This document shows positions 43,641 through 46,429 of a stretch of DNA of 49,401 nt, piece by piece. The DNA comes from Spirochaetales bacterium (GTDB taxonomy: Bacteria; Spirochaetota; Spirochaetia; Treponematales; UBA12059), in NCBI GenBank assembly GCA_016926955.1, contig JAFGNN010000042.1, positions 1-49,401 of the forward strand. The letters run 5' to 3'. The position numbers and the translations under genes were made by a program. Below the pieces are notes generated by a model. That model saw only the letters and a list, made by a program, of their open reading frames with translations, did not search any database and was not told the DNA's origin. The stretch's first letter is position 1. Each line of letters opens with the position of its first letter.

Positions 43641-43848
43641 ATCGAGGAGTACGTGTTCTCCCAGACCAGGAACCGCTACCGAGACTCCTCACTCGATGCG
43701 CGACCACGATTCCGGAGGGGTGCATCCAGGAATGGAGCACAGGGGGCCAGGGTGATTCCCCGTGGTCGTGCTTTGGGGAACAGGGGTCTCGCAAGCGTAC
43801 TTGCGGGGAAGAATCCCTTTCGCTCGAAACGAAGGGGGCTCTTCCCCG
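43641..43848. other. Densely folded intergenic region between the sigma-factor and HD-GYP genes
   Basis: About 300 bp without a gene. Four stems can be drawn: GAGGAGT/ACTCCTC (43644-43650 with 43684-43690), CGACCACG/CGTGGTCG (43701-43708 with 43761-43768), CGCAAG/CTTGCG with a four-base loop (43790-43805), and CGGGGAAGA/TCTTCCCCG (43804-43812 with 43840-43848) enclosing a second 8-bp stem. No tRNA, riboswitch or T-run is recognised. It could be a 3' UTR of the sigma gene, a leader of the HD-GYP gene, or an RNA gene. Confidence 0.45.
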
Positions 43849-43853
43849 GGTAC

Positions 43854-44693
43854 TCAGGCGCCGGCGAAGGTCGCGAGCTCCTCGGCTTCCTCGCGGAGCT
43901 TGCGGATGGCGCGCTTCTCGATCTGCCGCACCGTCTCCGGCGACAGGCCCAGCTCGGCGCCGATGCGCTTCAGGGTGTATTTCTCCCCTCCGAAGAACTC
44001 GAAGCGGTACATCAGGATCTTCTTCTCGCGCTCGAGCAGGGCTTCGAGCATCTCGACCGTCTTCTCGCGGATCGAAGCCTTCATGAGCTCCGCGTCCGGG
44101 CTGTAGGTCGAGTCCTCGTAGACGTCTATGACGCCGCCGGAATCCTCGTCCCCGTCCGACTCGAGCGGCACGAGGGCGCCGGCCATGCCGAGCACCGATT
44201 CGACCGCGCGGGCCTCGACGCCGAGTTCCGCCGCCACCTCGACCAGGGAAGGCTCGCGGGCAAGCACCTGGGAGAGCGTGGCCTGGGTGCGCTGTATCCG
44301 CTTGAGGAGCTCTTCCTTGCGATGGGGCAGGCGGATCGCCCGCCGGCTGTTGACCAGGCTCCGGGTGATGGCCTGCTTGATCCACCACGACGCGTAGGTC
44401 GAGAAGCGGACCTGGCGACGGTCGTCGAACTTCTCCGCGGCCCGGATGAGGCCGAGGTTGCCCTCCTGGATGAGGTCGATGAGGGGCACGTCGATGGTGC
44501 TGAACGCCCGGGCTATCTTGACCACCAGGCGAAGGTTCGCCTCGACCAGGGCGCGCCGGGCCTCGGTATCGCCGGAACGGATCCGGCGGGCGAGCGCCTG
44601 CTCCTCGGCCGCGTCGAGCAACGCGATGGTCTTGATTTTCGCGAAGTACGCCTTGAGCGAGTCTTCGTTCCTGTCCTGTCCGCTGGTACTCAT
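43854..44693 (-). CDS. Alternative sigma-70-family RNA polymerase sigma factor (RpoS-sized)
   Basis: A 279-residue group 2-like sigma factor. Region 1.2 (DSLKAYFAKIKTIALLDAAE), region 2 (NLRLVVKIARAF, DLIQEGNLGLIRAAEKFD, FSTYASWWIKQAITRSLV), region 3 (LPHRKEELLKRIQRTQATL) and region 4 with its HTH (LKRIGAELGLSPETVRQIEK) are all present; region 1.1 is absent. The length is close to Borrelia RpoS (about 267) and far below a primary RpoD. The ATG at 44693 follows AGAGG. A sigma-54 promoter 25-40 bp upstream is the only clear promoter, so expression should depend on RpoN and an enhancer-binding protein. Confidence 0.92.
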   Translation of the reverse strand: MSTSGQDRNEDSLKAYFAKIKTIALLDAAEEQALARRIRSGDTEARRALVEANLRLVVKIARAFSTIDVPLIDLIQEGNLGLIRAAEKFDDRRQVRFSTYASWWIKQAITRSLVNSRRAIRLPHRKEELLKRIQRTQATLSQVLAREPSLVEVAAELGVEARAVESVLGMAGALVPLESDGDEDSGGVIDVYEDSTYSPDAELMKASIREKTVEMLEALLEREKKILMYRFEFFGGEKYTLKRIGAELGLSPETVRQIEKRAIRKLREEAEELATFAGA

Positions 44694-44716
44694 GCTTGCC
44701 TCTCTGCCACTAATAA

Positions 44717-44733
44717 AGCAAGAAGCGTGCCAA
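44717..44733 (-). promoter_or_regulatory. Sigma-54 (-24/-12) promoter of the alternative sigma factor gene
   Basis: TTGGCACGCTTCTTGCT on the minus strand matches the consensus YTGGCACGRNNNTTGCW at every defined base but R, with exactly 10 bp between GG and GC. The expected start, near 44706, gives a 13-nt leader holding AGAGG. A perfect CCATGA/TCATGG inverted repeat (44735-44747) abuts the upstream side. Confidence 0.85.
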
Positions 44734-44906
44734 CCCATGAGTCATGGCGTAATAAGGCAGGATATCCATCCATGGAAAGGATTTAGACATGTTCGACCGA
44801 GAGGCCGAGCCGTGCGGAGAGTCACATTGTCTGATTAAGTAGAATAGAGGGTCCCGGGGGCTGTATGAATTTTAACACGCTTTTCGAGGAAAACACCGGA
44901 GCGGAC

Positions 44907-44934
44907 GAAAAACGCCCGGCACTATGGCCGGGCG
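44907..44934 (-). terminator. Terminator of the 43-residue protein gene
   Basis: CGCCCGGC pairs with GCCGGGCG (44913-44920 with 44927-44934); on the minus strand the stem is followed by TTTTT. Confidence 0.85.
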
Positions 44935-44962
44935 CATCGATTGCGGCTCGGGGCGCATTAAA

Positions 44963-45094
44963 TCACTCGAGGCTGATCAGGCCGGAGGGCAACTCGGCTT
45001 TCCGGGTTTCCGCGCCGGCCGCGTCCGCATCGTATTCGCGGATGAAGGTGAAAATGGCGAGTATGGCTACGACGGCGATGACGAGTTTCCGCAC
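44963..45094 (-). CDS. 43-residue single-pass membrane protein
   Basis: A short frame from GTG 45094 to TGA 44963. Residues 4-18 form one hydrophobic helix (LVIAVVAILAIFTFI) after a basic Met-Arg-Lys start, followed by an acidic, Ala-rich tail (REYDADAAGAETRKAELPSG). GGAGG lies exactly 6 bases before the GTG. A promoter (45146-45119) and an intrinsic terminator (44934-44907) frame it as a complete transcription unit. No family is recognised. N-in topology and regulatory or envelope function are inferences. Its neighbours are the LysM-M23 endopeptidase upstream and the sigma-54-controlled sigma factor downstream, both on the same strand. Confidence 0.72.
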   Translation of the reverse strand: MRKLVIAVVAILAIFTFIREYDADAAGAETRKAELPSGLISLE

Positions 45095-45118
45095 GGTGAT
45101 CCTCCGGAACCGGTTTAC

Positions 45119-45146
45119 CTTATCTGAACGACTCAAGGTCGGTCAA
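45119..45146 (-). promoter_or_regulatory. Promoter of the 43-residue protein gene
   Basis: TTGACC (45146-45141), 16 bp, GATAAG (45124-45119); leader of about 20 nt containing GGAGG. Confidence 0.5.
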
Positions 45147-45196
45147 GCGCGAAGGGGCGCGGCCAGGCGGCGCGGACGGGCGCCGCGTCGATCCGC

Positions 45197-46429
45197 CTAC
45201 TTTTTCAGGACCCCCAGGGGATCTATGGCCTTTCCGTAGCGGAAGACCGAGAAATGCAGGTGCGTACCCGTGCTGACGCCCGTGTTGCCCACAAGCCCGA
45301 CTGGATTTCCCTGGTACAGGTACTGCCCCTTGGCCACCAGGATGCGGTCGAGATGGGCGTACCAGGTCTGGTAGCCGTCGGCATGGCTCAGGATGACGTA
45401 ATTCCCGTAGACGGTGTTGAAGCCCGTGTCGGCGACCCGCCCGTCCATGGCGGCCTTGGCCTTCGTCCCCTTGGCGGCGACGATGTCGATGCCGTTGTGG
45501 AACTGGCGCACGCCGGTGAAGGGGCTCGGGCGGTAGCCGAAGCGGCTCGAGATGCGGCCGGAGACCGGCCAGAGCACCAGTTCACCGAGCACGCGCTTGA
45601 GCTCGGTCGAGGAGAGCTTCGCGCCGGGGACGAAAAGGCTCTGGCCGACCGCGAGGGTCTCGGACGCCAGGTCGTTGGCGTCGAGAAGGGCAGTGACTGT
45701 GGTGCCGTGGCGTTTGGCTATCGAGGCGAGGTTCTCGCCCTTGCTTACCTTGTGGACGACGCCCGACATGTTCGGGACGCGGAGCTCGGCGCCGGCCTTG
45801 AGCGCCTTGGCGCTCGAGATGCCGTTCAGGCTTATCAGGCTGTCCATGCTTACGCCATAGCGCTTGGCGATGGTGGACAGGGCGTCGCCCGACTTGACGC
45901 GGTACCTGTAGATCTCGAGCGACACGGGGGGCGGAGGCACGTCGAAACCTTCCTCCGGCGGAACGGACTCGGTGCCGTGGAGGAACGAGAGCAGCAAGGA
46001 CTCGAAGGCGGGATCCTCCGGAAAGGCGAGGGCCGGTTCGGGCTCGGGCGGCAAGGTCGGGATGACAGAGGCCGAGACGAGGAAGACGCCCAGCACCATG
46101 ACGGGCACGGCGAGGGCGGCGAGCGCCAGCGCCCTCGGCGCGGCCAGGAAACGGGCCGGGACAGACGCGGCGAGAGGGACGAGGGCGCGCAACGCGGCCC
46201 CGGGTCCGCGGCGGGTTTTCGCCACGGACCGTTTTGACGGCCGGGTCCTTCCCGGGATCGGAGCCTTGGCTTCGCTTCCGAAACCCAGTATGGAGGATCC
46301 GCGGGCATAGAGCCCCTCCACGGGGACGGGACGCGCGGCGGACACGCCTCCGGAGGGGAAACCCCTGCGGCGGGGACCCGAAGGATCGCGACGACGTGCT
46401 ACGCTCTGGCGGCCGATAACGCTTTGCAT
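45197..46429 (-). CDS. LysM-domain M23-family murein endopeptidase
   Basis: About 410 residues. An Arg-rich cytoplasmic N-terminus of some 80 residues, one membrane helix (LAALAVPVMVLGVFLVSAS), two LysM domains (YRVKSGDALSTIAKRYGVSM and HKVSKGENLASIAKRHGTTV), then a peptidase M23 domain with zinc ligands in QFHNGIDIVA and GTHLHFSVFRYG. The catalytic His pair is present, so it should cut peptide cross-links in the periplasm. I chose the ATG at 46429: AAGG is well spaced, and earlier ATGs (46435, 46471) are too close to it or lie within the -10 (TATAAT, 46475-46470). Divergent from lepB. Confidence 0.9.
   Translation of the reverse strand: MQSVIGRQSVARRRDPSGPRRRGFPSGGVSAARPVPVEGLYARGSSILGFGSEAKAPIPGRTRPSKRSVAKTRRGPGAALRALVPLAASVPARFLAAPRALALAALAVPVMVLGVFLVSASVIPTLPPEPEPALAFPEDPAFESLLLSFLHGTESVPPEEGFDVPPPPVSLEIYRYRVKSGDALSTIAKRYGVSMDSLISLNGISSAKALKAGAELRVPNMSGVVHKVSKGENLASIAKRHGTTVTALLDANDLASETLAVGQSLFVPGAKLSSTELKRVLGELVLWPVSGRISSRFGYRPSPFTGVRQFHNGIDIVAAKGTKAKAAMDGRVADTGFNTVYGNYVILSHADGYQTWYAHLDRILVAKGQYLYQGNPVGLVGNTGVSTGTHLHFSVFRYGKAIDPLGVLKK

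Follow-up and report, generated by a model that had tools for sequence, protein, structure and literature searches.

The closest described system is the Hk2-Rrp2-RpoN-RpoS cascade of Borrelia burgdorferi. The hk2 gene lies immediately upstream of rrp2, and activation of Borrelia rpoS by Rrp2 is reported to need no enhancer (PMC1976401). There is one enhancer-binding protein (EBP) in B. burgdorferi (PMC11109971), and rpoS is described as its only known sigma-54 promoter, within an RpoN-RpoS cascade that has been called unique (PMC12472547). The status of Borrelia RpoS is disputed; Borrelia RpoN has been described as “appropriated” for rpoS transcription, and a separate duplication was postulated by Chiang and Schellhorn (PMC6719511). 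The Rrp2 of Treponema denticola is described as unstudied and as a predicted sigma-54 EBP (PMC12070737). Across bacterial classes, sigma-70/32 genes (COG0568) have been associated with sigma-54 promoters, the spirochaetes being unnamed in the section concerned (PMC12316311).

The locus described here resembles the B. burgdorferi cascade in having an orthologous sigma gene with a -24/-12 element at the same place, an rpoN gene, and an Rrp2 orthologue behind a PAS kinase; the combination of PAS kinase and NtrC-type regulator is also that of T. denticola Hpk2-Rrp2. It differs in possessing a tandem enhancer where Borrelia activation is enhancer-independent, eight strong EBPs instead of one, eight exact sigma-54 sites where only the rpoS promoter is known, and a second sigma relay. 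The enhancer and the second relay make this system a variant, not a copy, of the Borrelia cascade. The present finding was not found in print in a search limited to open-licence PMC papers, and part of it may be contained in the supplementary data of PMC12316311.

The sigma A gene and its -24/-12 element

The window, meaning the whole stretch of DNA that was analysed, comprises 49,401 nt from a Spirochaetales bacterium (GCA_016926955.1, contig JAFGNN010000042.1, positions 1-49,401). Its minus strand carries a gene (43854-44693, including the stop codon) for a sigma-70-family group 2 sigma factor of 279 aa, here called sigma A, identified by its regions 1.2, 2, 3 and 4 and by its place in the tree. 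Sigma A resembles proteobacterial RpoS in its group 2 domain layout without region 1.1 and in having TIGR02394 as its best NCBIfam match, but this match reaches only 232 bits against a cut-off of 378.7, and E. coli RpoS, the one proteobacterial RpoS in the tree, clusters with Nitrospirota sigmas outside sigma A. On the basis of this score, the lack of a common clade and the AU tests given below, sigma A was rejected as an orthologue of proteobacterial RpoS.

The gene is preceded by a sigma-54 -24/-12 element, TTGGCACGCTTCTTGCT (44717-44733, minus strand), which matches the consensus at 13/13 positions with exact GG-N10-GC spacing, and whose -12 C lies 24 nt from the ATG at 44693. The spacing of the element predicts a transcription start, as yet unmapped, at 44706 on the minus strand, about 12 nt past the -12 element. 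It is followed by a Shine-Dalgarno-like AGAGAGG (44699-44705, minus strand), spelled with the same letters in two congeners (L003 and L004). A simple scan of 43700-45200 found no sigma-70-like site. A preliminary description of this DNA, which had pointed to a near-perfect element with exact 10-bp spacing ahead of a 279-residue group 2 sigma gene, to an AGAGG in the leader and to the absence of a visible sigma-70 promoter, is thus borne out. It had also proposed that a CCATGA/TCATGG repeat beside the element might bind an activator or repressor. The repeat exists, as the palindrome CCATGAGTCATGG (44735-44747, not assigned to a strand), but it is missing from both congeners, in which the -24/-12 element is retained; the regulatory role was rejected, the repeat is probably not functional, and the likelier activator sites are two others further upstream. 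An intrinsic-terminator-like hairpin (44912-44935, minus strand), 3' of the upstream LysM/M23-type ORF that ends at 45197, sets the promoter region apart; with 2 hairpins observed against 1.3 expected in shuffles, the evidence for a terminator is weak.

A single -24/-12 site is by itself weak evidence, since 0.87 sites are expected by chance in the window when 2 mismatches are allowed. Throughout the genome there are 8 exact TTGGCAYRN4TTGCW matches; when one mismatch is allowed the number is 17, where the reversed control pattern gives 8. Conservation among relatives settles the element as real despite this weakness. Within the same order, an exact GG-N10-GC element scoring 10-13/13 precedes 29/29 orthologues, consisting of the window's own and 28 others at 50-96% identity (L027, which ends at a contig edge, was dropped). 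The sample was widened with records from GTDB genomes and genomes of the phylum, and a FastTree of the sigma proteins was built from 187 distinct rows, omitting L082 (too short), L027, L043 and L138 (cut) and repeat loci. In this tree sigma A forms a split of 121 rows with support 99, of which 85 come from Spirochaetota genomes and 36 are named records, all with spirochaete or treponeme titles except L033 (“bacterium”). The phylum search involved 247 genomes among the matches listed, and the 121 rows are not a phylum-wide count.

A GG-N10-GC element scoring at least 10/13 was found within 200 nt upstream of 114 of the 121 sigma A rows, with distances counted from the start of the tblastn match and not from annotated starts. 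Five of the seven misses have a close variant: TTGGCACG-N5-TTGT in L051 and L053, a 12/13 element about 220 nt upstream in L067, the variant TTAGCACGCTTTTTGCT in L198, and a score of 9 in L156. The upstreams of the remaining two, L141 (a second copy in its own genome) and L142, have no element. Dinucleotide-shuffled upstreams reach a score of at least 10 in 163 of 24200 cases (0.7%), the opposite strand in 1/121 and the reversed sequence in 0/121. Outside sigma A and the second sigma discussed below, none of 45 rows (38 non-spirochaete records, six spirochaete paralogues including RpoD, and E. coli RpoS) reaches 10, the top score being 9. The flanks of the element diverge even among congeners, while the element itself persists. 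These sequences share kinship, and the counts are consequently not counts of independent events. The window genome also contains a single rpoN gene (G000:C67:5349-5819, E 2.2e-54). The preliminary description had proposed an RpoN-to-sigma cascade outside Borrelia, and had suggested looking for rpoN and NtrC-type activators in the genome and for the GG/GC elements in close relatives; all of these are present, and the cascade is well supported by conservation. That sigma A is transcribed by this sigma-54 route is an inference made without transcription data, about which we nevertheless have little doubt.

A tandem upstream site and its candidate activator

Two palindromic sites lie further upstream on the minus strand: a predicted EBP site, CGTGTTAAAATTCATACA (44862-44879; 13.8 bits), 146 nt upstream of the -24 element, and a second predicted activator site, ATTCTACTTAATCAGACA (44828-44845; 11.5 bits), 112 nt upstream of it. 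Their scores are reached by 0.01% and 0.03% of 20000 shuffles, respectively, using a position weight matrix (PWM) whose training set included the window itself, and the next-best score in this upstream is -5.6. The sites are 34 nt apart, and both are conserved in the two congeners.

The same arrangement recurs in the family. In an upstream alignment, blocks at fixed distance are retained, and a scan for TGTATAC-N4-GTATACA with at least 11/14 matches found 50/130 upstreams where about 2 would be expected. A palindromic PWM built by EM (TGTATAAAATTTTATACA) was scored on held-out sixths of the 111 sigma A upstreams that lie outside family f7, which we take to comprise the Borrelia-type genomes (about 0.9-1.8 Mb); it exceeds 12 bits in 76/111 (0.6% of shuffles) and 10 bits in 87/111 (2.4% of shuffles). 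Measured upstream from the -24 element, the sites concentrate at about 110 and 145 nt, and 80/111 upstreams have a site inside these bands compared with 0.7% of shuffles, although the bands were set after the positions had been seen and the PWM for this count was trained on the same 111 upstreams. The spacing is 33 or 34 nt in 24 of 42 site pairs. No site of 8 bits is present in 18/111 upstreams, mostly of distant families, although in 17 of these 18 the -24/-12 element reaches a score of 10 or more. Paired sites of this kind are familiar from the E. coli glnA enhancer, in which two palindromic NtrC sites, about three helix turns apart, precede a sigma-54 promoter by roughly 100-150 bp. Spacing and distance are similar here, whereas the site sequence, TGTATA-N6-TATACA, and the target differ. 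Such a tandem palindromic enhancer of sigma A promoters is new here, and we infer that the two sites of the window very probably constitute one.

None of the eight f7 upstreams reaches 8 bits (highest 6.5), in agreement with the published enhancer-independent activation of rpoS in Borrelia (PMC1976401). The paired activator-binding site appears to have been lost in Lyme-type bacteria and retained by most of their relatives. Borrelia-type Rrp2 has a Fis recognition helix closely resembling that of other Rrp2 orthologues, so a lost helix does not account for the loss of the enhancer. Among the EBP loci and other sigma-54 sites, the motif exceeds 9.5 bits only in L205, L242 and L246, besides the window promoter (L206). 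At L205:1501-1616, an enhancer-like site scoring 10.1 bits lies 99 nt ahead of a sigma-54-type site, and the next ORF has no Pfam match.

The best explanation of the locus as a whole is a sigma-54 relay to sigma A, to which we assign a probability of roughly 0.87. The element, the gene, rpoN, the EBPs, the conservation, the enhancer motif and the orthology of Borrelia-type RpoS are computed observations; the steps between them are proposed. An activated NtrC-type EBP would bind the pair of palindromes located some 110 and 145 bp upstream and, once bound, would contact RNA polymerase carrying sigma-54 (RpoN) at the -24/-12 element. Sigma A, thus switched on, would redirect polymerase to the sigma A regulon. 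The relay would have been present in early Spirochaetota, with Borrelia keeping a version without the enhancer.

EBP matches above the cut-off number 13 in the window genome, and 8 of these are strong (E 3.2e-50 or better). One, L219 on G000:C69, has the receiver, AAA+ and Fis domains of an Rrp2 orthologue, and the gene directly before it encodes a PAS-HisKA-HATPase kinase. L219 groups with the single EBP of two f7 genomes in a clade with support 99 that has one row in each of 8/8 genomes; the orthologue was found in 15/17 genomes of a wider tree and in 9/9 genomes of a third set (clade support 95). These trees lack unparsed loci (L224 and L260 in the first, L260, L294 and L309 in the wider, L337 in the third) and the unfetched EBPs of G126, G073, G186, G024 and G027, and further loci were not put into the third; absence of an Rrp2 orthologue from G073 and G126 is consequently not shown. 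Two genomes, G192 and G277, have one EBP each, which belongs to the Rrp2 clade, together with a sigma B gene that carries a 13/13 element and no better sigma among the matches listed. Any sigma-54 relay in these genomes, as in Borrelia, would need to pass through the Rrp2 orthologue.

The likeliest activator is this RR-AAA+-Fis protein with its adjoining PAS histidine kinase, an inference wherever a genome has several EBPs. That it binds the two sites of the window is also inferred, in the absence of binding data, and is probable without being firmly established. The enhancer cannot be assigned to a single EBP, as a GAF-type EBP is common too. It remains possible, though unlikely, that the relay is real and is driven by another EBP, for example this GAF-type one (L218 family), the Rrp2 orthologue having taken over only where other EBPs were lost. 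The GAF-type protein forms a clade with support 100 and one row in 10/17 genomes, including the window's own (L294 of G257 was unparsed), and the window genome has eight strong EBPs. However, in G120, where the sigma A promoter (L122) has the enhancer site CGTATTAAAAAGTATACA, no orthologue of the GAF-type protein was seen, and none was seen in the Borrelia-type genomes with their one EBP each. The lone EBP of G192 and G277 is of the Rrp2 type, and their sigma B element scores 13/13.

Borrelia-type RpoS and the age of the relay

The best match of f7 RpoS falls in sigma A, and all eight f7 rpoS upstreams that were fetched have a -24/-12 element (scores 11-12). In an IQ-TREE analysis of 54 rows, f7 RpoS lies within the sigma A side of a branch supported by UFBoot 100 and SH-aLRT 99, on the other side of which are E. 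coli RpoS, the Nitrospirota sigmas, RpoD and sigma B. AU tests rejected four alternative groupings of f7: p was 0.0015 for f7 with E. coli RpoS alone, 0.0024 for f7 with E. coli RpoS and the Nitrospirota sigmas, and 0.008 both for f7 with sigma B and for f7 with all outgroup rows.

The preliminary description had left undecided whether the cascade is older than Borrelia or arose twice, and this placement, with the element in 8/8 rpoS genes, favours the older origin. Independent origins of the relay in Borrelia and in the other spirochaetes might be argued from the length of the branch to Borrelia-type RpoS (1.36), for which long-branch effects are not fully excluded, and from the absence of the enhancer from Borrelia-type promoters. 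Such a double origin is improbable in view of the 100/99 branch, the rejection of all four alternative groupings and the Rrp2 orthologues common to both. With Borrelia-type RpoS inside sigma A and the parts of the relay shared, the Borrelia cascade looks inherited, not invented there. Sigma A would then be the lineage of the duplication postulated by Chiang and Schellhorn.

Some f7 genomes show irregularities in rpoN, as judged by the match to the sigma-54 DNA-binding domain. The matching stretch contains stops in G128 and is split in two in G155, and the rpoS elements persist in both; in G276, rpoN was not found by this domain, and the rpoS -24/-12 element is still there.

Sigma B, other sigma-54 sites and RpoN in genus g12

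The second group 2 sigma of the window genome, sigma B (G000:C45:1141-1935; L183, L204), has 34% identity to sigma A, and its promoter has a perfect -24/-12 element, TTGGCACGAGGTTTGCA. Counting L179 as sigma B, the element precedes 11/21 sigma B rows: 9/10 in the window's class, the tenth (L197) having TTAGCATAGTTTTTGCT, and 2/11 outside it. A single enhancer serving both sigma A and sigma B is not supported; sigma B upstreams are mostly low-scoring (that of L195 reaches 10.2 bits at -210), and 8-mers common to the upstreams of both genes were uninformative. Visual inspection of the sigma B upstreams of L173, L194 and L195 showed repeated TGTCATTTTGATACA-like palindromes, which resemble the sigma A motif but are shorter and are perhaps a sigma B enhancer.

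Elsewhere in the window genome, exact sites lie ahead of genes for a 1-Cys peroxiredoxin, an Hsp20 and a bacterial Ig-domain protein and two ORFs without a Pfam match; one further exact site (on C67) has no clear target. In G240, the only 3 exact TTRGCAYRN4TTGCW sites precede sigma A, sigma B and an Hsp20 gene. The sites of the window genome and of family f3, in few genomes, suggest a stress-type sigma-54 regulon.

As separate observations, several genomes have sigma-54-type sites ahead of genes for peroxiredoxin, Hsp20 and ferritin-like Dps-type proteins (L202, L203, L274-L277); among these sites is the sole exact TTRGCAYRN4TTGCW match of a Treponema-type genome of 1.14 Mb (G032).

The RpoN box reads AVRTVNKYR in 4/4 genomes of genus g12, family f3 (L266-L269), and ARRTVAKYR in 6/6 other genomes read; the box of the window genome is ARRTVAKYR. 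The sigma A and sigma B promoters of g12 start with TTAGCA instead of TTGGCA in 3/3 genomes checked (L197, L198, L278-L281). Single further TTAGCA sites precede a peroxiredoxin gene (G024) and a ferritin-like Dps-type gene (G027), and some TTGGCA sites also occur in these g12 genomes. The RpoN box and both sigma promoters are changed together in this one genus. In G208, which we take to be T. denticola ATCC 35405, the sigma A and sigma B promoters have the form TTAGCA-N6-TTGC.

One could also suppose that the window's element arose by chance in a leader rich in GC and that an unseen sigma-70 promoter drives the gene. This reading can appeal to the 0.87 sites expected in the window at 2 mismatches and to the 17 against 8 control sites genome-wide at one mismatch. 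It is refuted by comparison and hardly credible: 114 of 121 family members have the element, which only 0.7% of shuffles match, the flanks diverge within a genus, and in g12 the RpoN box and the promoters have changed jointly. An additional sigma-70 promoter remains possible.

Taken jointly, the observations lean slightly towards a picture in which early Spirochaetota had a sigma-54-centred stress response, with RpoN and an Rrp2-type activator driving one or both of sigma A (with the tandem enhancer) and sigma B, as well as peroxiredoxin, Hsp20 and Dps-like genes. What survives in Borrelia as RpoS would then be a pared-down sigma A that was put to a new use in host switching. In a single Treponema-like genus, RpoN would have drifted jointly with its promoters to a new -24 sequence.

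The sigma-54 relay to sigma A offers a testable answer on the origin of RpoS: the Borrelia-type protein is a member of a sigma family of spirochaetes, and the sigma-54 promoter of this family predates Borrelia. It also provides a candidate enhancer sequence for Rrp2-type activators and candidate targets for T. denticola Rrp2, and g12 supplies an example from nature of RpoN changing jointly with its promoters. On comparative evidence from DNA and protein alone, the RpoN-to-sigma switch looks old and widespread among the spirochaetes, and the sigma-54 element of sigma A looks to predate Borrelia.
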